Shown: positions 9,852 through 23,732 of the stretch, piece after piece
How the letters are laid out: every line of letters starts with the position of its first letter
How positions within the stretch are numbered: position 1 is the stretch's first letter
Virus record (IMG/VR): IMGVR_UViG_3300034072_000820
Span: 1-23,732 of that record
Strand: one strand, 5' to 3'
DNA: 23,732 nucleotides
Source: a virus
Translations under genes and position numbers: made by a program
Notes under the pieces: generated by a model
What the model was told of the DNA's origin: nothing
The model's database searches: none
Seen by the model: only the letters and a program-made list of their open reading frames with translations

Positions 9852-12738
9852 GTTCAGCCGCCAGACGGCCTGGTGATTGCTCAAAAGCCGAACGAAGCGC
9901 GGCCTGCATGTTCAGCACGTCATTGGCCGATGCACCGGCAGCCGCAGCCGCCTTGCCGCCAAGGTTCAGTTGCTTTTCGATGTTCGCAGCGGTCGGCATC
10001 TTGCCCGCCTTGGCAGCGCCCTTGACCATCTTGGTGTAGCCGGTGGCCCACTGCACAAAGCGCGGGTTGGCCCAGAGGCGGGACACCACGTTTGCGGTCA
10101 GCGCCTGCGCCCCGAGCGTGCCCACGTTGGTCAGCCCAAACAGCATGTTGACGACACGCGCCGTGCCTGACGGGTTGCCGCTGTTCTGGACGGTCGCCAG
10201 CCCTTCCATGGCGTTCGCAAATCCGTCCAGTTCCTTGCGCAGATCGCTCTTGCCAAAAATGATGTTCTTGGCTGCCGGGTCCATGTTCTTGAACGCGGTC
10301 AGGAAGGTCTGCGGCGAAAAGTCGCGGCTTTCCTTGTTTAGCGGCTGCCCCATAAGCCGGATCATCGACGACGAAACCGAATCCCATTCATCGCCGGGGA
10401 TGGACTTGCGGATTTCCGCCAGCTTCTTGATGTCAGCCGTGCCGCTGTTGTTCAAGCTGATCGTGTCAATCAGCTTGGCAGCGCGCTCGGCAGGGTTCGT
10501 GCCGTCCTTGCCGAGAATGGACACAAGCGCCTTTTCCAGACGCTCTTCCTTCTGCCGGTTCAGGGTATTGGCGCGCTCGAACTTGCGCAGGGCATCGGGG
10601 CCAAGCGCGGTTGCCGTCGCCTTCATGTCATCGGACAGGGACGCATAAAGCCCGCGAAGCTGCTTCTTGCCGAGCCGGTCACCGACGATCAGCGCCTCGC
10701 CAATCAGATCCCCGATTTCCGTGCGCCAGCCCTTGATGTCGCGCCAGGTCAGGCCAGCATCAACTGCATCGCTGAATTGCGCCATCTTGCCGTTGGCGAA
10801 CGCCTGCTGAAGCACGGGGCTGTCAAAGCGGTCTGCCTGCCCGTCCAGAAACGCGCGGGTGTTAGGGGTGGAAGCCGGGGCCTTGGGGCTGATCGGGATG
10901 GCATCATAAGCCTTGCCGACAACCGCCTGCGCCTTGTCCCGCCACTTGTTCGCACCTTCAATCAGGGCCTCACCGCGCGACGTGAACGAACCGCCGGGGC
11001 CGAACCGATCGGCAAGCCCCTGCGCGCCCTGTGCCGCCCCTGCAACGTTCTCGCGGATGTTCGCCGCAACCCGGCCACCGCCCGGCGACAGAGCCAGTGC
11101 ATTCTCCGCGATGGCAGCACTGCCGCCCATGGTCGAACCCAGCGTCGGGTTAGGAACGCCTGCGTTCAACTGGTCCTGATAGGCTTGCGCGGCGGGGCGA
11201 GGCGTCCCACCACCCCCACCACCGCCACGGCCCCCTAGCAGGCGCTGCGCACCCGCCCCAAGCACCGCACCCAAGCCAGCGCCCGCTGCGGTATCGACGA
11301 TTGTGTCTGCCGTCCCTTCGCCGCCAGCAAAGCCGAAATAAGCCCCGCCAGCCGCGCCTTGAGCCGCCGCGCCGCGCAGAGTAGCGGCGGGAGCACGGAA
11401 CGCGCCTACGGGGCTGACGATGTTGCCGACAAGCTCGGGCAACACACCTTCCCGCTCGCGTCCGACCTCAAGCGAGCGACGCACCAGATCGCGCTCTTGC
11501 ATGTAGCCATCAACGAAGCTGCGGCCTTGCGCCAGATTGGCAATCCCACCAGCGACGCCCGAAGCCTCATCGGTGAGGCCGGTCAAACCTTGGGCGATCA
11601 GCGCGCTAGTGTTCGCACCGCCTGCCTGCCCCCGTGCTGCCAGTTCCGCATCAAGCTGTGCCTGCCGCGCCGCATCCTCACGGCTGTAATCGATACCCGG
11701 CATCCGCCCGGTCTGGCGATAATACGCCATGGCAGCTTCCACCTGTTCGGGCGTGCCAAGGGTGCGGCCAAAAGCGCCGGTTGCAAAGGCGTTGACCTCC
11801 GCCGCCGATGCGTTCGGGTTCTGCGCCATGAAGGTCTGCAACTGTGAAAGCTGCTGCGGATTGAAGCGGAAGCCGGTGAGCTGGTCGCCGCCGTCCATGC
11901 CGAACTCGATTTGCGTTCCCTGCGGCAAGCGCGGCAGATCGCGGACATCAGCATTTGCCACATTCTCTTCCAGCCTGCGCTGCGCTTCCAGAATTGGGCG
12001 ATAGATCGCATCGACAGCTTCAGGCTTGCGGCCATTGGCAAGCATGAAGTCGCGGTCGCGCATCAGGGCGTTTTGCAGGATGTCAGCGCGCCGCTTCAGG
12101 TTGGCCTTGATCTTGTCAGGCGACATGCCCGGTTCAATCGTGGTTGCGCTGTAAGCCGCCTTTTCAGTGTCGGTCAGCGCCGATCCGAAAAGCTCGTTAC
12201 GGATTACGTTGTCGTTACCCTTGAAGTCTGCCCACCATTCGGACTGGCCCGGAGTGGCCATGCCGAAATCGAACCCATAGGCCTGCAAGGTGTTCTCGAC
12301 ACCTCCAAGCACGTTGCCGCCGAAATCGTCATCAAAGGTATCGGCGCTGCGGCGCAGGCTTTCGTATTGACCGACAAACCCGCGTGCGGTGTTGAACTCG
12401 CCAGCGGGAATGGCCGTCCCATCAGCGCCTGCGGTGCCGGGAATGCGCTCGGCCTCGCCACCGACAATGCCGTTCTTCCAGCGGTATCCAGTCGGTAGCT
12501 TGGGCGCGTTCGGGTCCGCAATCGGGGTGGCGTTGCGCTTGCGCTTGTAATCCAGATCAAGCGCATCCTCTTCCGCTTGCGCGGGGTCAACGGGCTTGCG
12601 ACCAAAACGGATCGCAGGCTGGGCAGGCTGCCCACTCGGTGCAGGCTGCGCAGGGGCCGACACGCGCCCGGCAGGAACCCATGCCGTGCCGTTCCACTGG
12701 ACGCGCTCGCCAGTCTGCGGATTAACTGCCGTCTGCAT
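9826..12738 (-). CDS. Large ejection (DNA-transfer) protein, gp16-position, 970 aa
   Basis: ATG at 12738 overlaps the upstream stop (TAATG). The N-terminus has the NPQTGERVQWNGTAWVPAG segment often seen at the start of podoviral internal proteins. A Gln/Ala-rich region at about 350-390 follows. A long Gly/Ala-rich, membrane-compatible region lies at about 440-510 (AAAQGAAGGAYFGFAGGEG, then DTAAGAGLGAVLGAGAQRLL), ending in a run of Gly. The C-terminal half is helical. P22 gp16 (609 aa) is an internal virion protein ejected with DNA to help cross the inner membrane; this one is longer. Position (third of the ejection set, just before the tailspike genes) and composition support the call. There is no lytic domain that I can see. 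Confidence 0.75.
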   Translation of the reverse strand: MQTAVNPQTGERVQWNGTAWVPAGRVSAPAQPAPSGQPAQPAIRFGRKPVDPAQAEEDALDLDYKRKRNATPIADPNAPKLPTGYRWKNGIVGGEAERIPGTAGADGTAIPAGEFNTARGFVGQYESLRRSADTFDDDFGGNVLGGVENTLQAYGFDFGMATPGQSEWWADFKGNDNVIRNELFGSALTDTEKAAYSATTIEPGMSPDKIKANLKRRADILQNALMRDRDFMLANGRKPEAVDAIYRPILEAQRRLEENVANADVRDLPRLPQGTQIEFGMDGGDQLTGFRFNPQQLSQLQTFMAQNPNASAAEVNAFATGAFGRTLGTPEQVEAAMAYYRQTGRMPGIDYSREDAARQAQLDAELAARGQAGGANTSALIAQGLTGLTDEASGVAGGIANLAQGRSFVDGYMQERDLVRRSLEVGREREGVLPELVGNIVSPVGAFRAPAATLRGAAAQGAAGGAYFGFAGGEGTADTIVDTAAGAGLGAVLGAGAQRLLGGRGGGGGGGTPRPAAQAYQDQLNAGVPNPTLGSTMGGSAAIAENALALSPGGGRVAANIRENVAGAAQGAQGLADRFGPGGSFTSRGEALIEGANKWRDKAQAVVGKAYDAIPISPKAPASTPNTRAFLDGQADRFDSPVLQQAFANGKMAQFSDAVDAGLTWRDIKGWRTEIGDLIGEALIVGDRLGKKQLRGLYASLSDDMKATATALGPDALRKFERANTLNRQKEERLEKALVSILGKDGTNPAERAAKLIDTISLNNSGTADIKKLAEIRKSIPGDEWDSVSSSMIRLMGQPLNKESRDFSPQTFLTAFKNMDPAAKNIIFGKSDLRKELDGFANAMEGLATVQNSGNPSGTARVVNMLFGLTNVGTLGAQALTANVVSRLWANPRFVQWATGYTKMVKGAAKAGKMPTAANIEKQLNLGGKAAAAAGASANDVLNMQAALRSAFEQSPGRLAAEPTDEQGQM

Positions 12739-13787
12739 TAGCGGACCCCCAGCTTGTTCATGGACAGCCAGCTTTGCAGGCGCTCACGGCCTGCCGGGGG
12801 AAGCATCATGTTGAGGCGGTTCCAATCGGTGCGGCTGATAAATCCCTGGTTGACCGCAAGGCCCATGATGCTTGCAGCCTCGTCCAGCTCGGGGCTATCC
12901 GCGCTCATCCGCTGGCTGCCCTCAAGCTGGAAACCCGGAGGCGGGGGAGGGATAGCCCCCGCACCGGTAGATGCTGGATCACCTCCTTCCATGCCTTGAT
13001 TGACGGGAGTGGCCTGCGTTCCGTCCATGTTGAACGTGCCGCCGCCATAGCCCGAGATGGGTCCGGGCATCGGCAAGCCGCTGGTTGCAGTCGATGCGGT
13101 GTAAACGCCATCAGGACCGGCCAGGAACTTGTCATCCGCCACTCGCTTGGCAGCCACTGCATAAGGCTCGCCCATCGTGCGGGCGTTGAACCGAAACACC
13201 TTCTCATCAGTGGTTGGCGACAGGCGGGAAAGCTTGCCATCGGTCATGGCATCCAACGCCACCTCGACCATGCCCGCCGCCGCGTTGACTTGCAGCGGAT
13301 CGCCGCTTTCGATCATGCCGAGAATGGCCTCATCTTGCGGGTCAGCCATGCCGGACTGCGCCTTTTCCGCCTCGATACGGCGGCGCAATTCCTCAGCAGC
13401 CAATTCGGGCTTGCCGTTGGATAGCGCCCCGTAGATGTTCGACATGGCGCGAAGGTTCGATTGCTTTGCAGGCTCATCGAGCGACGTGAAAGCATCGCCA
13501 AGCTGCTGCCTGAACTCGGGGAAACGGGCGAACAGGGATGCACGGCGCTGCGCACGCAATTGCGGATCACGCTCGACCAGATAGCCGTCCATGGCGTTCT
13601 GGAACTCGACCGCCTGTTGCTGCTCGCGTTGCGCCTTGGCGAGAATCTGCTGCTGACGCTGCGCCTCTAGGCCAAGCTGCCGCTCCTGCATCGCCACCTG
13701 ACGACGATCCAGCTCCTGCGCCGCATAGTCCGGCACAAGCGACATTCCGCTGCGGAGAACGGAACCCTGATCGATCGGCTGGACCAT
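12738..13787 (-). CDS. Ejection/internal virion protein, gp20-position, 349 aa
   Basis: The ATG at 13787 overlaps the upstream stop (TGATG). The N-terminal 60 residues form a long Gln-rich helix (LEAQRQQQILAKAQREQQQA). The middle is helical with acidic turns, and a Gly/Pro-rich linker (GAIPPPPPGFQ) lies at about residue 280. The C-terminus is helical again (FISRTDWNRLNMMLPPAGRE). This is the layout of podoviral internal core/ejection proteins placed between gp7 and gp16 equivalents. P22 gp20 is 471 aa, so this is shorter. Assignment rests on gene order and composition rather than a domain. Confidence 0.65.
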   Translation of the reverse strand: MVQPIDQGSVLRSGMSLVPDYAAQELDRRQVAMQERQLGLEAQRQQQILAKAQREQQQAVEFQNAMDGYLVERDPQLRAQRRASLFARFPEFRQQLGDAFTSLDEPAKQSNLRAMSNIYGALSNGKPELAAEELRRRIEAEKAQSGMADPQDEAILGMIESGDPLQVNAAAGMVEVALDAMTDGKLSRLSPTTDEKVFRFNARTMGEPYAVAAKRVADDKFLAGPDGVYTASTATSGLPMPGPISGYGGGTFNMDGTQATPVNQGMEGGDPASTGAGAIPPPPPGFQLEGSQRMSADSPELDEAASIMGLAVNQGFISRTDWNRLNMMLPPAGRERLQSWLSMNKLGVR

Positions 13788-14455
13788 CAGAAGATGGACT
13801 TCAATGCGCCGCCGATCCCGCTGCTCGGCAGGAAGGACGACGCGAGGCTGTCAAGGAACGAACCGGCATTGTTGAACTGCTGCGCGGTAATGCCGCCACG
13901 GGTCAGCAAGCCCCCGGCCCGAACCTGACCCTGCTGGCCAAGGATGTTCGATACCGCGTTGGCCTTGTTCGCGCCGAAATTGGCCAGGCTCTCGGTCGAA
14001 CCCAGGCCCATGCCTGCCAGACCCCCGAGATTGGCAAGCTGCCGGTCAATCGTGGTCGCCAGCGTGTCTGCCCCGAAGTCCGCAAGGCTGCGCTGCGTGT
14101 TGCCGCCACGAATGCCGCCCGTCGCCGACGCATTGGCCAGCAACGCTTCCTCACCCGTGCGATAGAGCGACTGGTAGAACGGCGACGACCGCAGCGCCTC
14201 GATGGCGGAACCCTGTGCATCGTTTCCGTTGACGCCGATCAGGTCGCCAAGCGGCCCGAGACTGGCGCGGCCAAGGTTGTTGTAAGGCTCGAAATTCTGC
14301 TGCGTGGTGTCGAACTGACGGCGCTGCTCATCAAGCGCGCGGTTCAGATACTCAAGTTGCGCAGCCTCAGCGCGCCGGGAAGCCTTTTTCTGCTTTCCGC
14401 CGCCGATCAAGCCTGAAACGAACGAGAAAAGTCCCAACGCGATCCACCCATGCAA
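13787..14455 (-). CDS. Internal virion / DNA-transfer protein, gp7-position, 222 aa
   Basis: The protein has a short hydrophobic, Gly-rich N-terminus (LGLFSFVSGLIGGGKQKKA), then a Gln/Glu helix (EYLNRALDEQRRQFDTTQQ) and FEPYNNLGRASLGPLGDLIG. A characteristic SSPFYQSLYRTGEEALLANA / RGGNTQRSLADFGADTLA segment follows, and the end is Gly/Ala-rich (GGLLTRGGITAQQFNNAGSF). I know this arrangement from podoviral DNA-transfer proteins. No ATG fits: TTG at 14455 is the first plausible start, and TTG at 14437 is another. It begins the ejection block after one of the 17-bp elements. Confidence 0.75.
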   Translation of the reverse strand: MHGWIALGLFSFVSGLIGGGKQKKASRRAEAAQLEYLNRALDEQRRQFDTTQQNFEPYNNLGRASLGPLGDLIGVNGNDAQGSAIEALRSSPFYQSLYRTGEEALLANASATGGIRGGNTQRSLADFGADTLATTIDRQLANLGGLAGMGLGSTESLANFGANKANAVSNILGQQGQVRAGGLLTRGGITAQQFNNAGSFLDSLASSFLPSSGIGGALKSIF

Positions 14456-14466
14456 CTGTGCTTGGC

Positions 14467-14485
14467 CGCATTCTCGCGGGATGCG
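14467..14485. repeat. Short inverted repeat before the ejection genes
   Basis: CGCAT (14467-14471) and ATGCG (14481-14485) form a 5-bp stem, and an overlapping alternative GGATG/CATCC pair (14479-14491) is also possible. Both lie in the gap between the needle-position gene and the ejection block, downstream of the 17-bp element on the coding strand. The stems are short and may be chance, but the same arrangement occurs at the other two copies. Confidence 0.3.
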
Positions 14486-14495
14486 TCATCCGGTT

Positions 14496-14512
14496 CTATT
14501 TAACGTTTTCAG
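14496..14512 (-). repeat. 17-bp late-operon repeat, copy 1
   Basis: On the coding strand this reads CTGAAAACGTTAAATAG. Its TGA is the stop codon of the needle-position gene (14509-14511) and is followed in frame by TAA. Copy 2 is identical and copy 3 differs at one base. It sits in the gap before the ejection genes. It could be an internal late promoter, an RNA-processing or regulator site, or a conserved recombination linker; the sequence alone does not decide. Confidence 0.8.
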
Positions 14513-15033
14513 GTCACGCGGAGCTTTAGTGTCGATGCCGTGCGGTAAACGCCGCCCACCGGCACACCCCCCGCCGCAGCCGCAGCATCATCCGCATAGT
14601 CGCCGATGCCGGACAGTTTGGGGCTGGCCAGCGTCTTGTTCGACAGGGTTTCCGCGTTCTCAGTGGTCGCCAGCCTGCCAGATAGGGGCAGCGCAACGTT
14701 GGACGCACCTGACACCGTGAACGTCGCGGCAAAGCCCCCGTTGATCGTCGGGACAATCGCGCTCGTCCGCACGACAACCGCATCGGCGGTGACAACCAGG
14801 CTGATCCCCGTGCCCGCCTGCAAGACGCGCTCGTTTGGCAATTCCGAGTTGGGCGAAAGCGTCACATAGGTAGCATTGGCCAGCGTGTCGGTCGCCGCCA
14901 CAGCCGCTTGAGTTGCCGCCGTGTTTTCCTCGACAAGCTGGCTCTGCTGCTCAAACGCTTTCAACAGGCGGATATCGCCCTTGAAATTGGCGTTCAGATC
15001 GCGCCGGGAGAGGAAGTCAGGGACGCGGGCCAT
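14509..15033 (-). CDS. Tail needle/fibre-position structural protein, 174 aa
   Basis: ATG at 15033 overlaps the gp10 stop (TAATG). Residues about 20-50 can form a coiled coil (LLKAFEQQSQLVEENTAATQ). Then come fibre-like beta segments (NERVLQAGTGISLVVTADAV), the phage-fibre motif ENAETLSNKTLASPKLSG and a C-terminal YADDAAAAAGGVPVGGVYRT module found at the ends of several phage structural proteins. In P22 this position holds gp26, the trimeric needle that plugs the portal. Length (P22 gp26 is 233 aa) and coiled-coil/fibre content fit a shorter needle, but sequence identity to gp26 is not evident. Confidence 0.6.
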   Translation of the reverse strand: MARVPDFLSRRDLNANFKGDIRLLKAFEQQSQLVEENTAATQAAVAATDTLANATYVTLSPNSELPNERVLQAGTGISLVVTADAVVVRTSAIVPTINGGFAATFTVSGASNVALPLSGRLATTENAETLSNKTLASPKLSGIGDYADDAAAAAGGVPVGGVYRTASTLKLRVT

Positions 15034-16424
15034 TATGCCCCCAGCGCCTCGAATGTGCCTTCAAGCCGCGCAAAACCCGGCAGCCCCGGCCCGTAGCCCC
15101 GGAACCGCAGGCCAAGGTAATTGCCGAACCGGACATGCGGACGCCATGCCAGACGCCGGTTGCGCGCACCCGATGCCCCAAGGGACAAGGCCCGTTCCTG
15201 CCCCCAGAACTGCCCATCGGTCGAAAGCGACAGGAATATTTCGGACGATGCGGCGAACGGCTGCCGTCCGGGCAGGCCCACCAATTCAAGCTGGTGCACG
15301 ATCGCCCCAAGGCTCTCGTTATACAGCATCCCCGTCTCGAACCGCCATTGCGCGAGCTCGCCGAAATGCGTTGCCACGGTGTAATCGAGAACCCCAAGCT
15401 TTGCCGAGATTGCATCCCCGACGATATAGCGCCCGCCCACCTCGACAGGGTAGCGGATGCGATAGGGCTGATCGATCCCCGACTGTGCTTGATACCAGAC
15501 AGGTTCTCCCGCAACCTTTGAGGCCGTCAGCAGGAATACCAGCGTGCGGTCCGACAGATGCACCAATAGGCGCTCCTCGTCCTTCGACTGGACCGTTTGC
15601 AGCACTATCCCCGCCGGATTGGTCTCCGCAGCCAGGATGTCATCGACTACGCGCGTGCTGATCTTGTCCGCATCGCCATTGCCCGCAAGATAGACCCCAA
15701 GGCTTTCATTGCGCTGCGAGCCGACGAACGCGAACGAGGGGCCGAACAGACACTTTGCCGTTGCCGAGACGCAGCCATAGGGGATGGTCGCGCCTAGGAT
15801 CGTCGAGAAGGGGAAGCCGTTGTCGCCTACGTTGCGGAACACCTGGATGGTGTGTGTGCCCAGAACATAGGCTTCCTCATTGAACTTGATAAGCCCGGTA
15901 CACATGTCCGGGTCATCCTCGGCACTGCCGTATTTGAGCGGGTCAACCGCAGTCGGGTCCGATAGCTGGGTAACGACGATGTTTGTCCCATCGGTCGTCA
16001 TGAAATAGCCGTCGATCCACAGCATATCGAGCACACGGCCAAGGTCCGGGTCCGTCACCTGAATGAGACTGCTGCCCGTCCAGTAATAGAGCCGGTCGCC
16101 CGAATTGATCCCCAAGCGGTCAAAGCTGTAATCCAGACGAACAGGCCCACCGCTTCCCACGTCCCCAAGCTCGGTAACAGCGCCCATATTGGACACCGTG
16201 ACCAGCTTCGTTCCCATGACGCGGTAATGCGTGCCGTTCCATACGATGCCGCCGCGATCCACCCCCGGACCCGTGGCGAAATCCACCGCACCGGCAGCGG
16301 CACGGAACTGCCCCTTGGCGATGTTGCTGTCCACGACCAGCGCCTCAAGGTTGACCGGCAGGCTTTCGATGAACTCGGCTTCGGACGTGCCGACAACGCC
16401 GCCAAGCAGGGGGATGGCAGGCAT
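15033..16424 (-). CDS. Packaged-DNA stabilisation protein, P22 gp10-like, 463 aa
   Basis: The start at 16424 overlaps the upstream stop (TAATG). The opening MPAIPLLGGVVGTSEAEFIE then SLPVNLEALVV parallels P22 gp10. Repeated beta-propeller-like strands run through the protein (YYWTGSSLIQVTDPDLGRVL, WIDGYFMTTDGTNIVVTQLS, CLFGPSFAFVGSQRNESLGV). The end, ASSEIFLSLSTDGQFWGQER, matches the family's C-terminal strand region. Length is close to P22 gp10 (472 aa). gp10 forms a hexameric ring below gp4 in the tail hub, sealing DNA in the head and binding the needle. Neighbouring gp4-like and needle-position genes support the assignment. Confidence 0.85.
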   Translation of the reverse strand: MPAIPLLGGVVGTSEAEFIESLPVNLEALVVDSNIAKGQFRAAAGAVDFATGPGVDRGGIVWNGTHYRVMGTKLVTVSNMGAVTELGDVGSGGPVRLDYSFDRLGINSGDRLYYWTGSSLIQVTDPDLGRVLDMLWIDGYFMTTDGTNIVVTQLSDPTAVDPLKYGSAEDDPDMCTGLIKFNEEAYVLGTHTIQVFRNVGDNGFPFSTILGATIPYGCVSATAKCLFGPSFAFVGSQRNESLGVYLAGNGDADKISTRVVDDILAAETNPAGIVLQTVQSKDEERLLVHLSDRTLVFLLTASKVAGEPVWYQAQSGIDQPYRIRYPVEVGGRYIVGDAISAKLGVLDYTVATHFGELAQWRFETGMLYNESLGAIVHQLELVGLPGRQPFAASSEIFLSLSTDGQFWGQERALSLGASGARNRRLAWRPHVRFGNYLGLRFRGYGPGLPGFARLEGTFEALGA

Positions 16425-16897
16425 TACTGATCTTCCGGCGTAATGACCGCCTCGTAGATATAAGGCTGATAGACAGCCCAGCGGCCCGGATCATAGCCCG
16501 AACCGCGCACAGTCTGCGGCTGTAGCTTGACGGTCGGCAGCACCGACACGCGGCTGCACAGTTGCGCATAGGAACGCTTGCGCGCCGCCCGCTGCTCAGG
16601 GGAAAGCGCCTTGCCGATCCCTGGCGCAATCCGCTCGGCAAGCATGGTCGCGATTACCTGGCTGTCACGATTGGACACTCCCGATGCGTCCGAAGGGTTG
16701 CCGTCGCCAGCAGGGGGCTGGATATAGCCCAACTGGTCAAACGGCCATTCCCACATCATCGCATTCAGCTTGCGCAGGGCTGACGTGTATTCCTCCGCCG
16801 TCTTCTCAAACGAATATCCGGCAATGCCGCAGTCATCGAACGCCATGTCGATCAGCGTCGATTTGGGTATGCCTGACTCAATGAGGATTTGAACCAT
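16424..16897 (-). CDS. Tail accessory factor, P22 gp4-like head-completion protein, 157 aa
   Basis: ATG at 16897 overlaps the preceding TGA (TGATG). The helical core with ALRKLNAMMWEWPFDQLGYI at about residues 40-59 resembles P22 gp4 (166 aa). Then come NRDSQVIATMLAERIAPGIG and a long C-terminal tail. In P22, twelve gp4 copies extend the portal barrel and allow gp10 to bind; P22 gp4 also has reported peptidoglycan hydrolase activity, which cannot be judged here. The position directly before gp10 is as in P22. Confidence 0.8.
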   Translation of the reverse strand: MVQILIESGIPKSTLIDMAFDDCGIAGYSFEKTAEEYTSALRKLNAMMWEWPFDQLGYIQPPAGDGNPSDASGVSNRDSQVIATMLAERIAPGIGKALSPEQRAARKRSYAQLCSRVSVLPTVKLQPQTVRGSGYDPGRWAVYQPYIYEAVITPEDQ

Positions 16898-17214
16898 CAG
16901 CGGCGCTCGATTTCCGCCTTGATGGCAGCGATAACGCCCTTGCGGGTCTTGCCGCCCTCTTCCGCTTCCAGAAGCGCCAGAAGCTCGTCATCGGCAATGC
17001 TGGGTAGCATATCGGCGATCTCGGCTGCGGTGTGGTCAAGCACGCCCTTCGCCGGGGTTTCCTCGGCTGCCAGCGCCTCGGCCAGATCAGTGAAGCCCTC
17101 GTCGCGGGCAACGTCTTCCTCGTCGCCACCGCCCACAATCAGGCTGTCCAGCATCTTGCCGTCCTGCATGAACGAGGTGCCAGCGCGGAAAAGCATCTTG
17201 GGATATTCGCTCAT
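16897..17214 (-). CDS. Small virion-region protein with C-terminal helical (Rho-N/SAP-like) motif, 105 aa
   Basis: ATG at 17214 overlaps the upstream stop (TGATG). Residues about 1-35 are beta-like (YPKMLFRAGTSFMQDGKMLD) and the middle is acidic. The end, DMLPSIADDELLALLEAEE then GGKTRKGVIAAIKAEIERR, is a helix-loop-helix motif frequently attached to phage head-region proteins. The order (after coat and orf107, before gp4) suggests a head or head-completion accessory protein. P22 itself has no clear equivalent here. The function is unassigned. Confidence 0.7.
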   Translation of the reverse strand: MSEYPKMLFRAGTSFMQDGKMLDSLIVGGGDEEDVARDEGFTDLAEALAAEETPAKGVLDHTAAEIADMLPSIADDELLALLEAEEGGKTRKGVIAAIKAEIERR

Positions 17215-17537
17215 CAGAACTCACCCTGTCCCTGCGTCACGTAAAGGCTGCCATCGGCTGCCGACGCGATGCAGCGGATTTCCTTGTAACCACGCCCGCA
17301 GGTAATCACGATGCGCTCACGCGGCCCCACCGGCATGTCAGCGGTTACGGTCGGGGCAATGCCAGTTCCCAACGTATTGTCCGGGTATGTGGTGATGCGG
17401 AAAAACGAAATGGCCGTGCTGCTGCTGTTCCAGAGTGAAAGCTGTGAGCAATCCGGGTCGAGCGCTTGGTCTGCCGTTGCGCTGGTCGCATTAGCGATGA
17501 CGATCGTTCCACCGGCCTTAGGATTGAATGGGCGCAT
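17214..17537 (-). CDS. Small beta-rich protein after the coat gene, possible decoration/head protein, 107 aa
   Basis: ATG at 17537 has GAGG 8 nt upstream. The product is beta-rich with few charges: GGTIVIANATSATADQALD, then QLSLWNSSSTAISFFRIT, and ERIVITCGRGYKEIRCIASA near the end. This resembles small coat-decoration or head-completion proteins that follow a coat gene, but no named family is recognised. It is separated from the coat gene by 48 nt holding a GC-rich hairpin, so its expression may be tuned separately from coat. Confidence 0.6.
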   Translation of the reverse strand: MRPFNPKAGGTIVIANATSATADQALDPDCSQLSLWNSSSTAISFFRITTYPDNTLGTGIAPTVTADMPVGPRERIVITCGRGYKEIRCIASAADGSLYVTQGQGEF

Positions 17538-17553
17538 CTTAGCCTCGAAGTTG

Positions 17554-17577
17554 GCGGGAGGCCCGAAAGCCCCCCGC
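17554..17577 (-). terminator. GC-rich stem-loop just after the coat gene (partial terminator or 3' protector)
   Basis: In the leftward transcript, GCGGGGGGCU, loop UUCG, GGCCUCCCGC can form a 10-pair stem starting 8 nt after the coat stop codon. Two positions are A-C mismatches on the other strand but G-U pairs in the leftward RNA, so the structure belongs to this transcript. No U-run follows, so it is not a standard strong terminator. It could lower readthrough into downstream genes or shield the coat mRNA from 3' decay. Confidence 0.55.
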
Positions 17578-17585
17578 TAGGTTCA

Positions 17586-18863
17586 TCACGCCTGGCTGAA
17601 CATCTGGATGCCCATCATTTCGGTGTTCAGCGGAGCCACACCGAAATCGACATCCCAGCGATACTTGACCGTCAGGTCATTGATCTCGCCCTGGCGTGCA
17701 TAGGTGATGCCGACACCCATATCGGTGGTCGCGCGCAGCACCTGCCAGCCATCCTGCGGATCGACAGCGAACGTGCCGGGCAAAAGCTCGACAGCAGGCT
17801 TGACGAAGAACGGATTGACCGCCGCAGTCGTGGTGTTCAGGAACGTGATGTTAGCACCGTTGGCCGGGGTCGCAGTCACGTTCTTGTATTGCAGTTCCGC
17901 ACGGGTCGGGCTGCTGTCAGCCGCGATGATCGGCGGGGTAATCTGCACAGTGCCAGTGCCGCCCGCGCCGGTCACGATGGATACGATGCGGAAGGTCTTG
18001 AGCTGGCCAGTGCTCTGCTTGGTGATCGGGTGAACCGCGTTGACACCAGCAATCGTGAACGCATCGCCGACCTTGACAGTGCCGCTGGTCACAGTGATCG
18101 AAATCGTCTGGTAGCGGTTGTCAACGTTGGTGGTGTTGCCCGATGCGTCGGTAGTGACCGATGCCGGGACATAACGCTGGTTGGCACCGTTCATGGTCAC
18201 GCCAGTTGCTGCTGCTGCGGTCAGCGAGATCCACTGGTCATTCTTGAACACGTCGATGCCAGCCACGTTGCCGATGGTTGCGCGCTCATAGGCCGTGATT
18301 GCCTTGCCGGCAGCACTGGTCTGCGGCTTGGCAATGGTGCTTGCCATGTTGTTGTAGTCGCGCGGGCCATAGAACACCTTGCGCTGGGCAAGGGGAACGC
18401 CGAGCTCGGTCATCTGCGCATCAATCAGAGCCACGTCATCGAAGCCGGTTGCCGCCACGGTGCGCTTGCTGACGATCGAACCCTGCAATGCCACCGTCTG
18501 GTAGATCGCATAGTTGATGTCACTCGACAGCTTCAGCTTGGCTGCTTCACCATAACGGGAAAGCTGCTGCTGGTCGCGCAGATCCTTGCTGGTGAACTTG
18601 CCGGGGGCCGACTTGTGCTGCCCGATGATGGCCGGAACCGAAAGCTGCGTGATGTCGCCGAAGTTGCTCGACTGGTCGAAGCCGTCATAGGTCACGGCGA
18701 TATAGGGCATCGGACGCCACACGCGGTCCGACATGCGCTGCTGTTCCTGCGCGCTGCCGATGTTGTAAACCTCGACTTCCTTGGCAATCACAAGCTGATC
18801 GTCAAAGCCTTCGAGCACCTGGTCAAACATGACCCGCTCTTCTTTGGAAAATCCGTTGGGCAT
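17586..18863 (-). CDS. Major capsid (coat) protein, P22 gp5-like, 425 aa
   Basis: The protein starts MPNGFSKEERVMFDQVLEGF and has the P22 coat layout. An N-terminal arm leads into the HK97-type core (DRVWRPMPYIAVTYDGFDQS, FTSKDLRDQQQLSRYGEAAK). An inserted I-domain-like beta region lies at about 225-310 (NVDNRYQTISITVTSGTVKV, FTIAGVNAVHPITKQSTGQL). The C-terminal core strand is TYARQGEINDLTVKYRWDVD followed by FGVAPLNTEMMGIQMF. Length is almost that of P22 gp5 (430 aa). Hundreds of copies form the T=7 shell with scaffold. The coat gene lies directly after the scaffold gene, as in P22; the ribosome-binding site (GGA at about -12) is weaker than expected for the most abundant virion protein. 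Confidence 0.9.
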   Translation of the reverse strand: MPNGFSKEERVMFDQVLEGFDDQLVIAKEVEVYNIGSAQEQQRMSDRVWRPMPYIAVTYDGFDQSSNFGDITQLSVPAIIGQHKSAPGKFTSKDLRDQQQLSRYGEAAKLKLSSDINYAIYQTVALQGSIVSKRTVAATGFDDVALIDAQMTELGVPLAQRKVFYGPRDYNNMASTIAKPQTSAAGKAITAYERATIGNVAGIDVFKNDQWISLTAAAATGVTMNGANQRYVPASVTTDASGNTTNVDNRYQTISITVTSGTVKVGDAFTIAGVNAVHPITKQSTGQLKTFRIVSIVTGAGGTGTVQITPPIIAADSSPTRAELQYKNVTATPANGANITFLNTTTAAVNPFFVKPAVELLPGTFAVDPQDGWQVLRATTDMGVGITYARQGEINDLTVKYRWDVDFGVAPLNTEMMGIQMFSQA

Positions 18864-18924
18864 TGTAAAAATCCATCTATGGGAGGGTCACCGTCATCTC
18901 GACGGGGGAAGCCTCATGGGTTGG

Positions 18925-19746
18925 TTACTTGGCCTTCAGGCTCCGCTTGTAGGCGATGACCTTGGTTCGATCGCCCGTCTTGTCAGCTTCGCGCTCCAGC
19001 CGCTCGAGTGTCTTGTCTGCGGTTTCGCTGACACGGGCATTGCCGCGCAGCGGGGTGTCAGGTTCAGGGGCTTTGCGCTTTGACGACACTTTCATGGTTC
19101 CTTCCAATCGGGCAATCTCAGCCGCAAGCTTGATCGGGTCATCGATCTTGGAGAGGGCTTCCAGCCGTTCGGTCCGTTTCCCCAGCGCGTAGATCATCTG
19201 CGCACTGTTGACCGATGCCTTCACGACAACCGCCTGTTGAGCGGGACTGAAGGCGGAAAGCACAGCGGACTCGCTATCCTCGAAATCACCGACACGAAGC
19301 GCGGTCTTCTGCGCCTGGTAAGTGTTCAGGTCGGCTTGCCACTGCTCGGCTGCGCGACGCTGCACCGCTTCCGCTTCTGCCTCAGCCTCTGCGGCCTTGG
19401 CCTTCGCGCCCTTCCACTCGTCAAGCGCCGTCTCGAAAGCCTCTTCATCGTATCCGCAGCTTTCAAGCGTGGGCTTGGGGCCGGGATCGATGACCTTCGG
19501 GGCGGTCGCCTTGCGCGCTTCGGCCAGTGCCTTGTCACGCTCGCGGATGGCTGCACGAAGTTCGCGGATCACGCTGCTTTCGCGTTCTCCAGAGGCTGGC
19601 GCTGCCTCTTCATCACCAAAGACGATCTCCAGTTCGTCGCCCTCGTCAGTTTCGCTGTCCGCTTCGGCTTCCGGCTCGTCGCCTTCGTCCTCCACAATCT
19701 GCTCGTCTTCGAGTTCAAGAACCTCGTCGTCTGTAATGTCTGCCAT
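18925..19746 (-). CDS. Scaffolding protein, P22 gp8-like, 273 aa
   Basis: The N-terminal 55 residues are extremely acidic (ELEDEQIVEDEGDEPEAEAD). A long charged coiled coil follows (ELRAAIRERDKALAEARKAT, AKAAEAEAEAEAVQRRAAEQ). The end is a short basic helical hairpin (LERLEREADKTGDRTKVIAY then KRSLKAK), the kind of coat-binding tail found in P22 gp8 (303 aa). Position between portal and coat is decisive. Scaffold guides coat assembly and leaves the procapsid before DNA packaging. The ATG at 19746 has GAGGG 4 nt upstream, which lies in an inverted repeat (19751-19793) that could hide it. Confidence 0.85.
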   Translation of the reverse strand: MADITDDEVLELEDEQIVEDEGDEPEAEADSETDEGDELEIVFGDEEAAPASGERESSVIRELRAAIRERDKALAEARKATAPKVIDPGPKPTLESCGYDEEAFETALDEWKGAKAKAAEAEAEAEAVQRRAAEQWQADLNTYQAQKTALRVGDFEDSESAVLSAFSPAQQAVVVKASVNSAQMIYALGKRTERLEALSKIDDPIKLAAEIARLEGTMKVSSKRKAPEPDTPLRGNARVSETADKTLERLEREADKTGDRTKVIAYKRSLKAK

Positions 19747-19750
19747 ATGA

Positions 19751-19793
19751 CCCTCATCTCACCCGTTGACGGTCGGGCGGCTACCGATGAGGG
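19751..19793 (-). promoter_or_regulatory. Stem that can sequester the scaffold ribosome-binding site
   Basis: In the leftward RNA CCCUCAUC (19793-19786) can pair perfectly with GAUGAGGG (19758-19751). The latter contains the GAGGG ribosome-binding site of the scaffold gene, whose ATG is at 19746. The 27-nt loop can form a small inner stem (CCCG/CGGG). P22 scaffold synthesis is known to be self-limiting after transcription, so an RNA structure here is a natural candidate for control, though not shown. Confidence 0.5.
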
Positions 19794-19821
19794 CATTTTA
19801 CGGGCGCGCTAAGGGGCGGCG

Positions 19822-19838
19822 CTATTTAACGTTTTCAG
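19822..19838 (-). repeat. 17-bp late-operon repeat, copy 2
   Basis: The coding strand reads CTGAAAACGTTAAATAG, identical to copy 1. Its TGA is the portal stop codon (19835-19837), followed in frame by TAA. The scaffold-gene leader with its RNA stem begins just downstream. Flanking bases on both sides differ from the other copies, so the conserved unit is sharply bounded. Confidence 0.8.
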
Positions 19839-21925
19839 CGCGGTTCAAGCCGGGGCAAGGGGCGAAACTGTGCCATCTCGGTTTCCGTCCCGATGCGGCC
19901 CACCTCGGCAAGCTTGACCAGCGTTTCCGCTTCCGTTTCCGCCGTCTTGGCACGCGACAATTCCGTATCGGCCATGGTCTTTTCGGTGGTCGCCATGTCC
20001 TTTGCCGCCTGTGCGTTCAGCGCATTGGCCTGCGCCTCGACAGCCAGCGCGGCAGGATCGGGCTGTTCGCTTTCCGCCGCCGCGTCCATCGCCGCCTGCT
20101 CTTCCTCGTTCGGTTCGACCAGACCGATGGCAATGCCCTTGCGGCGGGCAAATGCCTGTAGCTGGTTGATGCCTTCGCCATCGCTGTTCATGACAGCCGT
20201 GATGATCGACGCTTGCGCAAGCTCCTGGTCGCCTGCCTGCAATGCGATTTCCGCCATGTTCAGCGACGATTTTACGGTCTTGTCACGCCGGGTAGCGGTC
20301 GCCTCGGTAACGCTCGCCACGACCTTGTATTTGCCGCGCTGCAAGTCATTGCGAATGCGGATCGTGCCGGTCTTGTCGGCAATCATTTCCTGTAGGATGG
20401 CTTCCCCGTCATCGCCATCCTCGGTCATGGTCTCGACCTTGCGGCCCGGCTCGAAATACACGTCGCGGGCCATGGACAGGTAAATCTCTGCCTCGCACTC
20501 GACCGACTGGCGCATGTTGTCCAGATACACGCCGGACTTGGCATCGACGCGCGCGGCGGCAATGTCCATCGCTTCTGCCGACACGTTGGCGCGCACTTCC
20601 CCTGCGCCGTCATTGTCCAGCTCGGTCAAGTCCTGGTTGGCAATCTGGAGCAAGGCAGCCTGCACCGGGGCAAGCTGCGGCGGCTCAATCTTGCCGATCG
20701 GTCCCGTTGCTACGTAGTTCCCGTCATTGTCGATGACCGGATCAACCAGCGCGTAAGGATGGCGCTCGATATTCTGGTTGGCCCACTGCTCCGCAAGATG
20801 CGGCGGCATCTGCTCGGCAAGGAAGATCGGCATCTCGCGCGGGGCGAGCGAATTGGTTTCCGCCAGCTTGGACACGTTGGAATTGTAAAGCCGCTGGGCA
20901 TCCATGCGGTCCTGCACGTGGCCCTTCCACCGCTCCATGTTGTCGATGAAATACCGCTTGCCATAGACCGGAACGACAGGGATGCGGTCGCCTGCAATAT
21001 AGCCGCAGTCCTTCACGATCTGAGCGCCGGTCATGACATACTTGTGCACCCGGCAACGCTTCCGACGCTTGCGGGTGACGGTCCAGCCCTTGGCCTGCTG
21101 CTCGGCAATGTAATCGGGCTCGATGTCGGACAGCCACAGCCGTTCCTCGATGCCGGTAAGCTTCTGCGTGAAGACCAGCAGGGTTTCGGTGCGGTCTTCC
21201 TTCTCGTAATACTCGGCAACCCGCACCATGTCCGGCGTGAACCAGTCGTATTGCAGGCGATAGGTCGCGTCCGGCCATGATGTGGCGGAATCCTCCCCGA
21301 ACTCGTCGCGGAAAGCGTCCATGGTATAGGCCGTCACAACCCATGCGAACCGGGCGTCGGACTTGTCGTAAAGCTTGCTGTTCAGGTCGAAGAACACGCA
21401 CTGATCGGCATCGACAATCGTCATGCCGGGGTTGATGCGCTGGTAATCGTTGTCCTTGTCGTAGGGGTCTTCAAGCTCGTTCGTCAGGCGATAGGCCCCG
21501 AAGCCGCCACGGATCGCTTCAAAGAACGCATTGTCGCGGGCCTGCTGCGCCTTGAAATGGTAGCTGTCGGCACGGTGAAGGCCGTCCAGCATGTCTGCCG
21601 TGTCCTGATCGCTCTGGCCGCCAGCGGGGCGGAAATCGGGAACAATGCGGTTCTCGCGATAGTCCGTCTCGATCTTCTCGACGCCACGGCTGATCTTGTT
21701 GACCTCGACGCGGATGGTATTAGCCCACTGTTCGCCCCATTCGCCTTCCCACTGTGCGCCGGGGATGTCGCAGAAGCGCCGGGCCATGAGCGACTGCTGG
21801 CGCATCTCAAGCTGAGGCGGGACGGTATCGTTGAACCGGCGCATGGCACGGTCAAACACCTCGCTCAGCGCGTCGGTCTCGGGCTGCTCTTCCAGTGCAG
21901 TGTCATGGGCGTTCGGGGAAATCAT
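19835..21925 (-). CDS. Portal protein, P22 gp1-like, 696 aa
   Basis: The protein is close in length to P22 portal (725 aa). The N-terminal part has RRFNDTVPPQLEMRQQSLMA and ARRFCDIPGAQWEGEWGEQW, then NTIRVEVNKISRGVEKIETD and YRENRIVPDFRPAGG, the typical opening of P22-like portals. The central stem/wing has IPVVPVYGKRYFIDNMERWK, QDRMDAQRLYNSNVSKLAET and NSLAPREMPIFLAEQ. Residues about 590-690 form a long Ala/Glu helix, the barrel. Twelve copies make the channel through which DNA is packaged and ejected. The site before ATG 21925 is weak and lies in an inverted repeat. Confidence 0.9.
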   Translation of the reverse strand: MISPNAHDTALEEQPETDALSEVFDRAMRRFNDTVPPQLEMRQQSLMARRFCDIPGAQWEGEWGEQWANTIRVEVNKISRGVEKIETDYRENRIVPDFRPAGGQSDQDTADMLDGLHRADSYHFKAQQARDNAFFEAIRGGFGAYRLTNELEDPYDKDNDYQRINPGMTIVDADQCVFFDLNSKLYDKSDARFAWVVTAYTMDAFRDEFGEDSATSWPDATYRLQYDWFTPDMVRVAEYYEKEDRTETLLVFTQKLTGIEERLWLSDIEPDYIAEQQAKGWTVTRKRRKRCRVHKYVMTGAQIVKDCGYIAGDRIPVVPVYGKRYFIDNMERWKGHVQDRMDAQRLYNSNVSKLAETNSLAPREMPIFLAEQMPPHLAEQWANQNIERHPYALVDPVIDNDGNYVATGPIGKIEPPQLAPVQAALLQIANQDLTELDNDGAGEVRANVSAEAMDIAAARVDAKSGVYLDNMRQSVECEAEIYLSMARDVYFEPGRKVETMTEDGDDGEAILQEMIADKTGTIRIRNDLQRGKYKVVASVTEATATRRDKTVKSSLNMAEIALQAGDQELAQASIITAVMNSDGEGINQLQAFARRKGIAIGLVEPNEEEQAAMDAAAESEQPDPAALAVEAQANALNAQAAKDMATTEKTMADTELSRAKTAETEAETLVKLAEVGRIGTETEMAQFRPLPRLEPR

Positions 21926-21947
21926 GCTGCCATGATACGCTGGCAGC
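21926..21947 (-). promoter_or_regulatory. Inverted repeat immediately before the portal start codon
   Basis: GCTGCCA (21926-21932) and TGGCAGC (21941-21947) form a perfect 7-bp stem with an 8-nt loop, ending at the base next to the portal ATG (21925-21923). In the leftward RNA the stem would cover the ribosome-binding region. This may reduce portal translation, fitting the need for only twelve copies per head. Confidence 0.5.
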
Positions 21948-21957
21948 GAGGCGGGGG

Positions 21958-21974
21958 CTTTTTAACGTTTTCAG
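21958..21974 (-). repeat. 17-bp late-operon repeat, copy 3 (one mismatch)
   Basis: The coding strand reads CTGAAAACGTTAAAAAG, differing from copies 1 and 2 at one base. TGA at 21973-21971 is the stop codon of the preceding 93-aa gene, again followed in frame by TAA. The portal leader with its stem follows. Confidence 0.8.
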
Positions 21975-22252
21975 GCGGACGGGGCAATCATCGCGGCGTA
22001 GCAATCGATCGCTGCGTCATAGTTCGCCATCTTGCGCATGTGGTCTTCGGTGATTGCCGTTGCACCCGCCATCTTCTGGTCAAAGCTGGGAACTGCTGGA
22101 ACGATGACCATGCCTGCCGCTTTCAAAGCATCGATACTTATGGCGGCTAGTGTGTCGGCGTCATCATGGGCGTTTAAAGGCTGCCGATTGCCATATGCCC
22201 ACGCGAAATCCCGCATCGCCTTAGCTAACACATCTACTGCTCTTTCGGTCAT
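21971..22252 (-). CDS. Hypothetical protein between terminase and portal, 93 aa
   Basis: ATG at 22252 has AAGGAT 9 nt upstream. The N-terminal half is helical (VDVLAKAMRDFAWAYGNRQP, DDADTLAAISIDALKAAGM). It is followed by MVIVPAVPSFDQKMAGATAI and an ending AAIDCYAAMIAPSA. That second half resembles in layout the C-terminal module of the early gene at 1486-1893. P22 has no gene between gp2 and gp1, so this is probably a moron-like insertion; the 17-bp element at its end supports a modular boundary. Confidence 0.7.
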   Translation of the reverse strand: MTERAVDVLAKAMRDFAWAYGNRQPLNAHDDADTLAAISIDALKAAGMVIVPAVPSFDQKMAGATAITEDHMRKMANYDAAIDCYAAMIAPSA

Positions 22253-22266
22253 GGTTGCCTATCCTT

Positions 22267-23499
22267 TCAGCGCCGCCCGAATGCCGTCCGCATGGCGGGG
22301 ATTTTGACTGATACCGTCTTGGGCTTGCCCTTGAGCGCCCGCCTTGCGCCTTCCACCGCATAGCGCAGCGCGTCAATACAGTGGTTATTCTTGTCCTCAA
22401 GCTCGGCAAGCACCTGGCCTGTGAGGCTGTCCACCTTGTAGCTGTAATGCGTCAGCTCGTCGATCAGGCGCACGCAGCGGGGGTGAATGACAAGATCATA
22501 GCTTTTGAGGAACTCCACGCCTTCCTCAACGCTGCGCTGCCCCTTGAGCGCCGATGCGATGCGGGGGAAGCCATTGGTGCGCAGATAGCTGATCGTTTCA
22601 GGGCGGCTGCTATCCGCCGTCATCCAATACCGCTCGGCCTCAGGGATGGACATGAACAGTGCCGGCAGGTTGACGATCTCGACGTTCAGCCCCCATGCCT
22701 CATGGTCGATGAATATCTGCGTGCCCTCAATCCAGCACCGCAGCGCCACCGATGGATCAATGCTGAACCCGAAGTCAGCACCAAGGCGATATTCCACACC
22801 GTCAGGGCTATCGAACGGCTCGACGCGCCAGTTCTTGAACACGCGCGCTTCGCTGTTCTGCCGGTATTGGCCGCGCCAGATATGCAGGTATTTGTCATAG
22901 TCCCGCTGCCGGTCGAATTCCATGGCCTCGCGTAGATCAGGCGGAAACCATGGGTTGTCATCGTAATTGACTTCTCGGACGATTGACCGTGGCGGCGGGC
23001 CGTTCTCGCCCCGGAACAGCTTGTCGATCGGATCTGACGCAAGGTCGGGGTTCCATGTGAATATCAGACGGGAACCTGGCGCGCGGATCGTCGGGATAAC
23101 CGTGTCCAAGCTGGCCTGGCTGAACGTCTGCGCCTCTTCGCCCCAGAATGTCGTGATGCCCTCAATCGACTTGATGCCGTTCGCGTTGCCCTTGATCCCG
23201 CTGAACAGGAACAGGCTATCGTTTGGCCCGCGTATCTCCGTCTCGGTGCTGGTGAATGCTGCCGACAGGCCAAGCCGGGCAATCTCGTCATCTAGCAGGC
23301 GCTTGACCGAATCCTTGATAGACTTCTGCACTTCGCGCCCGCACAGAATGCGCTCATGCCGTTCGACGGCTTGCAGGACCAGCCCTGTTGCAACCGATCG
23401 GGACTTTGCTGCACCGCGCCCGCCATGCCATGCCAGATAGCGGAACGGTTGCCATAGGTCGCCAGCATATGCCGGAAGGTCAACTTCCCTGTTCGACAT
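22267..23499 (-). CDS. Terminase large subunit (PBSX/Terminase_3 type), 410 aa
   Basis: This is the packaging motor ATPase and headful nuclease. Walker A is HGGRGAAKS at about residues 25-33. Walker B with catalytic Glu is GITTFWGEEA (114-123). A coupling motif TWNPD follows at about 148-152. The C-terminal RNase H-like nuclease begins with RLGADFGFSIDPS, where D242 is the first metal-binding Asp. Length is usual for the family (400-500 aa). The start at 23499 overlaps the end of the small-terminase gene by 20 nt. It works with the small terminase and docks on the portal. P22-like phages package by headful, so pac-type packaging is likely. Confidence 0.92.
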   Translation of the reverse strand: MSNREVDLPAYAGDLWQPFRYLAWHGGRGAAKSRSVATGLVLQAVERHERILCGREVQKSIKDSVKRLLDDEIARLGLSAAFTSTETEIRGPNDSLFLFSGIKGNANGIKSIEGITTFWGEEAQTFSQASLDTVIPTIRAPGSRLIFTWNPDLASDPIDKLFRGENGPPPRSIVREVNYDDNPWFPPDLREAMEFDRQRDYDKYLHIWRGQYRQNSEARVFKNWRVEPFDSPDGVEYRLGADFGFSIDPSVALRCWIEGTQIFIDHEAWGLNVEIVNLPALFMSIPEAERYWMTADSSRPETISYLRTNGFPRIASALKGQRSVEEGVEFLKSYDLVIHPRCVRLIDELTHYSYKVDSLTGQVLAELEDKNNHCIDALRYAVEGARRALKGKPKTVSVKIPAMRTAFGRR

Positions 23500-23732
23500 G
23501 GCGCAGGTTGATGGTGAAGCCGGACGGCATCGGGTTTTCAGGGTCGCTGCCGATCAATGTCTTGTCTCCATAGACCTTGGGCTTGAGTTTGGCCGCAACC
23601 CACTTGCGGGCATCAACGCGTAGTTTGGAGCGCGCCACAGCGTCCCCGTTGTATTTTACGCCATCATCCCCGCTTTCCATGTAATCATTGGATGCGTCGT
23701 CCGCGATGTCGCAGATTTCATCCGCCAATGTG
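23480..23732 (-). CDS. Terminase small subunit, C-terminal part (cut by window edge)
   Basis: The visible 83 residues contain DEICDIADDASNDYMESGDD, then ARSKLRVDARKWVAAKLKPK and VYGDKTLI. This is the conserved C-terminal half of a small-terminase family common in phages of Gram-negative bacteria, where the missing N-terminal half carries the DNA-binding helix-turn-helix. An ATG at 23728 is present but is probably an internal Met. It overlaps the large-subunit gene by 20 nt. Small terminase recognises the pac site and regulates the motor; the pac site, usually inside this gene, would lie beyond the window. Confidence 0.85.
   Translation of the reverse strand, partial: TLADEICDIADDASNDYMESGDDGVKYNGDAVARSKLRVDARKWVAAKLKPKVYGDKTLIGSDPENPMPSGFTINLRHVEQGS

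Follow-up and report, generated by a model that had tools for sequence, protein, structure and literature searches.

A terS-proximal Myb/SANT-like protein as the probable activator of repeated, phage-specific late-promoter elements in P22-like phages

Phages P2/P4 and Mu turn on several dispersed late promoters through a single small activator of their own (Ogr/Delta and C, respectively); Ogr, a zinc-finger protein, has sites centered near -55. Late control in lambda and P22 relies on Q and gp23, respectively, and on antitermination from one late promoter. The middle promoters of T4 use a MotA box instead of the -35 element, together with AsiA, while the host sigma70 reads the -10 box (PMC7403470). 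In Caulobacter, GcrA, which has a Myb-like DNA-binding domain, serves the primary sigma factor, sigma70, as a co-activator (PMC7403470). Dedicated activators also serve the gene transfer agents of alphaproteobacteria (GafY/GafZ and GafA); at the cluster promoter, GafY/GafZ act together with IHF and through antitermination, and DnaA- and sigma-like domains have been described in these proteins (PMC11150451, PMC9638019). Stoperators of L5 are short, asymmetric, phage-specific intergenic sites oriented with transcription (PMC9283540). The elements described below very likely belong to a kind already known, the activator-dependent phage promoter; what is new is the candidate protein family, the position of the site and its recoding from phage to phage. 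No prior description of them was found in the literature searched on late promoters, GcrA/Myb activators and P22-like repeats.

The window, that is, the whole stretch of 23,732 bases that we analyzed (IMGVR_UViG_3300034072_000820, a complete viral contig of 23.7 kb), carries three copies of a 17-mer on its minus (coding) strand. The repeat had been reported in a first-pass annotation from the letters alone, and its copies, positions and strand were all confirmed: CTGAAAACGTTAAATAG at 14496-14512 and 19822-19838 and CTGAAAACGTTAAAAAG at 21958-21974. The record held no fourth copy at up to three mismatches (0.03 expected by chance), and the pattern matched three times on the reverse strand of the whole record vs. 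none when read backwards. The copies and their neighbors, genes of P22-like type for the portal, scaffold, coat and ejection proteins, are as follows.

23480..23728, minus strand: ORF upstream of terL at the contig end, clustering with the small terminase family; the expected place of the candidate activator gene is past the contig end
21958..21974, minus strand: element copy 1 (CTGAAAACGTTAAAAAG), at about -49 to -33 of the putative portal promoter; its TGA ends the ORF at 21971-22252
21932..21937, minus strand: predicted portal-promoter -10 box, TATCAT, 6 nt 5' of the portal ATG (21925)
19835..21925, minus strand: portal protein (P22_portal PF16510, E 9e-138)
19822..19838, minus strand: element copy 2 (CTGAAAACGTTAAATAG) of the putative scaffold/coat promoter; the portal gene stops at its TGA
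19795..19800, minus strand: predicted scaffold-promoter -10 box, TAAAAT
19752..19790, minus strand: conserved hairpin in the leader of the scaffold transcript (39.2 bits, E 3.8e-7 with model R1, which was built from sequences that include the window)
18925..19746, minus strand: scaffolding protein (phrog_648, E 1e-43)
14496..14512, minus strand: element copy 3 (CTGAAAACGTTAAATAG) of the putative ejection-gene promoter; its TGA ends the ORF at 14509-15033
14470..14475, minus strand: weak predicted -10 box GAGAAT of the ejection-gene promoter
13787..14455, minus strand: gp7-like DNA ejection protein (P22_gp7, E 1e-12)

Each copy supplies the TGA stop of the gene upstream, as originally described (the ORFs end at 14509, 19835 and 21971), and the reading TGA-AAA-CGT-TAA bears out the claim of a second stop, TAA, in frame. 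Profile matches likewise supported the placement of the copies 5' of the portal, scaffold and gp7-type ejection genes. The statement that each copy lies in one of the few real gaps of the operon needs a small correction: gaps of at least 40 nt number seven on the late strand, and the element occupies three of them. The annotation had also proposed searching for further copies of the 17-mer; there were none elsewhere in the genome, and the window's version was missing from nearly all of the portal relatives searched, which we took from IMG/VR, a phage collection and GTDB genomes (the portal-alignment scan of the latter yielded only three relatives). The exact 17-mer occurs in 13 IMG/VR contigs, with one match each, and none of these is a portal relative. 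One record, L057, has the window's version of the element (GTAAAACGTTAAAATG).

A within-genome repeat scan revealed that each well-resolved relative has its own 14-20-mer repeat at the same places, i.e., 5' of portal, of scaffold or coat, and of the ejection genes, and sometimes of terS and later genes; copy numbers reach five to seven in some phages, with copies also 5' of further genes. Versions of the element in these relatives include TAGGGAAGGCAAATAG, AGACCCGTAAAATAG, GTAAAGCCGTCAAATAGC, GTAATTTGCCCAAATG, AATTGTTCAAACGC, CAAAAGTCCAAAAGCC, GTAAACCGGTAAAATG and TCACGATAAGGTTCAA. Copies agree inside one phage and differ among phages, sharing mainly the A-rich 3' part; the CGTT of the window copies, which in an EcfG-type promoter would follow GGAAC at about 18 nt, varies among versions. 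In total, we collected 92 sites in approximately 15 sequence versions from 29 records, selecting them as repeats near the portal gene, so that the -10 box played no role in the choice; related phages do not contribute independent sites. All but one of 93 matches were in the coding-strand orientation. In L120 (9933 and 12045) and L121 (9907 and 12064), relatives farther removed at 40% portal identity, (A)ATATACAAAACG stands before and after the portal gene and is possibly yet another version of the element. Judging from the sequences compared, the conserved features among relatives are the position and the promoter architecture rather than the 17 letters.

When the sites were aligned on the element, a TANNNT hexamer was present at an offset of 23, 24 or 25 in 42, 19 and 4 sites, respectively (65 of 92), vs. 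five sites at most at any offset in 1000 shuffles. The strict hexamer was missing at these offsets in 27 of the 92 sites, including copy 3 of the window; several relatives have GAAAAT, GAAAAC, GAAAGT or GAAGGT at the -10 position of the ejection promoter. There was no excess of the -35 hexamer (TTGACA) at the sites, with a mean of 2.23 matches vs. 2.12 after shuffling. A -10 box at a fixed distance and the lack of a good -35 hexamer are features of activator-dependent sigma70 promoters with a class II-like site that overlaps the -35 region. With the -10 box set as -12 to -7, the element spans approximately -49 to -30 of the predicted start. Thus, the element is upstream of its own promoter's predicted start, which argues against one of the roles first suggested for it, an RNA-processing site; the protein-binding site offered in the same suggestion survives as DNA binding in the model favored below. 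The earlier proposal of a late promoter inside the operon, or of a transcription signal specific to the phage, fared best, because the -10 box is at a fixed distance and the architecture is kept in the well-resolved relatives. The upstream stop codon is exactly at the 5' end of the element in 42 of the 92 sites and inside the element in 54, an overlap explained by the tight packing of the genes. In 28 of 61 portal genes, against a background of about 1% per position, the start codon lies 6-9 nt past a -10-like hexamer, and the mRNAs of such genes are probably leaderless. The same probably applies to the portal transcript of the window, because the portal start is 6 nt past the -10 box. Leaderless mRNAs are common in alphaproteobacteria.

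An all-against-all comparison of the ORFs of 16 near-complete genomes identified only one non-structural family in at least 10 of them (the next was in seven at most). Its members are proteins of ~100 aa encoded directly upstream of terS. The profile of this candidate activator family matched in every element-bearing record long enough to include the region upstream of terS (23 records); in G023 the match is split over two frames. The window contig stops short of the gene. In Sphingopyxis phage VSN-002, the only isolate of the group, the candidate gene (at about 1951-2286 of the record, minus strand) is unannotated. The VSN-002 record (L050) also carries an annotated telomere resolvase (14717-15835), hinting at an N15-type linear plasmid prophage. 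In at least six phages (G026, VSN-002, L076, G013, L176 and L067), the candidate activator gene has a copy of the element at its 3' end, before terS, with two mismatches in G013 and VSN-002 and three in L076. Searched against the PDB, the profile had its best matches to Myb DNA-binding domains (c-Myb, E 5.5e-9) and only a weak one to GcrA (E 0.08). The AF2 model has five helices (mean pLDDT 82.6) and predicts a C-terminal domain of three helices (58-67, 73-81 and 85-104, with high pLDDT) behind a helical hairpin; a Foldseek search with the same model gave no confident match. Pfam and PHROGs returned no confident family, the single-sequence Pfam matches being below the cut-off, and searching the phage collection with the activator alignment was unproductive owing to the low conservation. 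In G012 (L129-L131), a longer open frame (35898-36902) ends in the Myb-like domain, which may reflect a fusion or an ambiguous start site.

From the sequences we infer, with good though not full confidence, that the elements are activator sites of late promoters, that the terS-proximal Myb/SANT-like protein is the activator, and that sites and protein were recoded together. As separate parts of this reading, it is very likely that the elements are late promoters and likely that the terS-proximal protein activates them. The -10 box would be read by the host's RNA polymerase carrying the primary sigma factor, and the ~100-aa protein encoded upstream of terS would bind the element and stand in for the -35 contact. 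The internal promoters before the portal, scaffold/coat and ejection genes would top up the output of the late operon, and the activator and its sites would be recoded jointly between phages. By eye, putative recognition helices pair with element versions as xAVHRR/TTGTTCAAACGC, ETAAxSRL/ATTTGCCCAAAT, GAAYQRL/GCCGTCAAATAGC, AYDRL/GCGAAATAG and GMAYxRL/CCGTRAAAT. Element distances correlated with distances between the DNA-binding domains in a Mantel test of 22 records (r 0.55, p 1e-4), also when portal distance was taken into account (r 0.32, p 1e-4), and the N-terminal half of the protein correlated more weakly. With portal, scaffold and coat as the background, the partial r of the activator domain was 0.40 in 19 records (range, 0.37-0.40), close to the values for the structural proteins portal (0.38), gp10/26 (0.37), gp4 (0.35) and gp7 (0.32) in the same records. 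Because structural proteins correlate almost as well, common descent explains part of the co-variation; we reduced an initially strong claim accordingly, and the co-variation supports the proposed pairing without proving it.

Some members of the group depart from this pattern. Three genomes (G015, G018 and G021) encode activator homologues and had no detectable element of this architecture. In L181, where a pairing was predicted, no site was found; this contig ends inside an interrupted terL, which appears to be split by an intein-like sequence (11100-11350), after which the translation goes on as NHCIAEGQRVLCERGLIPIEEV. G017 and G019 have neither the protein nor the element. In G007 (L023, L033-L035), there is no Myb-like gene, and a palindrome, TGCCTA-N5-TAGGCA, precedes the portal, coat and ejection genes; an element similar to this palindrome precedes the portal gene of L103. 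A different palindrome, approximately GGTAT-N4-ATACC, is found instead near the portal, coat or ejection genes of G018 (L150-L152) and of the terL relatives L165 and L167-L170. From these comparisons, replacement sometimes seems to affect the switch itself but not its position. It is reasonably probable, and we hold this with less confidence than the promoter reading itself, that the proteins form a novel Myb/SANT-like family of late activators, with mutually orthogonal activator-promoter pairs at fixed positions that unrelated palindromes replace in neighboring lineages.

The same late promoters could have another reader, such as a phage sigma factor, another phage regulator or a host activator, while the terS-proximal protein served, for example, in packaging. 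The identity of the activator rests on presence, position, fold and correlation, and sigma region 4 is among Pfam's weak best matches, both of which leave room for this alternative; yet no other non-structural family is as widespread, and a host factor would leave the different element of each phage unexplained, so we regard another reader as unlikely. Two particular readers found no support. A T7-like RNA polymerase promoter was considered for the AAATAG ending, but PF00940 was absent in 11 records and a -10 box fits better; a PrtN-type activator, hinted at by the VSN-002 annotation, was not found either. Control genomes were silent in both searches as well. More improbable is a role like that of the stoperators of L5-like mycobacteriophages, with a prophage repressor preventing transcription from starting or continuing at these sites, although like stoperators the element is short, asymmetric, in one orientation, intergenic and phage-specific (PMC9283540). 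Its fixed distance from a -10 box and the absent -35 are promoter features, which stoperators lack, and the sites are mostly in the late region, with the candidate protein encoded beside terS.

The overlap of the window copies with stop codons, which would place them in read-through transcripts, speaks for an element acting in the RNA as a processing site, terminator or translational signal. The upstream stop is inside the element at little more than half of the sites, however, and the constant feature is the downstream -10 box, making an RNA-level role very improbable. We give even less credence to the remaining role suggested at the outset, a boundary or linker for module exchange as in lambdoid phages. 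Every copy in the window does sit at a gene-module border, but synteny is kept on both sides, exchanging phages should share their linkers, and here the sequence is near-identical within and different between phages, the opposite of a shared linker; a linker would not account for the -10 box that follows the element either. Activator-dependent late promoters thus remain our preferred reading.

As a by-product of the element analysis, we identified a short covarying hairpin that lies downstream of the scaffold promoter, in the leader of the scaffold gene; in phages with this promoter in front of coat instead, the hairpin precedes the coat gene. Its consensus is approximately AACCGC-NNNN-GCCGNNA-NNNN-GTGAG, with examples in L065 (12349-12387), L028 (12096-12134), L018 (12887-12924) and L050 (38741-38777, minus strand). 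Pairing was kept in 96% of cells, and 20 cells had changed on both sides vs. 5.0 after shuffling, a value reached in none of 500 shuffles. The model matched in approximately 35 of the 64 records, for the most part immediately 5' of scaffold or coat and including records outside those used to build it, and Rfam had no match for it in the six sources scanned. The hairpin is possibly a site for autoregulation by scaffold or coat.

The elements and their candidate activator provide a probable switch for the late genes of environmental P22-like phages, a large group with no such switch described in the literature searched, and the candidate activator is a gene that annotation misses. The promoter rule predicts start sites from sequence, including those of leaderless portal mRNAs. 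Further, the series of recoded sites and proteins lends itself to the study of how DNA-binding specificity evolves and could possibly supply orthogonal expression parts for alphaproteobacteria.

Among known systems, the promoters resemble T4 middle promoters in that a proposed phage activator site replaces the -35 element and a sigma70 -10 box is used. They differ in being late, in having a longer site (about -49 to -30) with a sequence that changes from phage to phage, and in that no AsiA-like partner was identified. As in P2/P4 and Mu, several dispersed late promoters would answer to one small candidate activator, although, unlike in P2/P4, the candidate is Myb/SANT-like and its site is at the place of the -35. 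The alphaproteobacterial setting, the small helical DNA-binding domain and the proposed action with the primary sigma factor recall GcrA, as does the weak profile match; however, the Myb-like domain of GcrA is N-terminal, with a sigma-interacting domain at the C-terminus, and reads methylated DNA, whereas the predicted domain here is C-terminal, behind a helical hairpin, and its putative sites are long and specific. L5 stoperators are repressor sites spread genome-wide, in contrast to the present sites, which are tied to a -10 box. The likeness to GafY/GafZ and GafA is that of an activator for a phage-derived structural cluster in alphaproteobacteria; the published descriptions of the Gaf proteins set them apart from the Myb-like candidate. 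With lambda and P22, finally, the phages share the position of the putative regulator gene, just before the late operon, as well as P22-like virion genes, and the candidate activator gene with an element at its 3' end before terS is reminiscent of lambda Q just before the late promoter; unlike in lambda and P22, several internal promoters are predicted here, each with its own upstream site.
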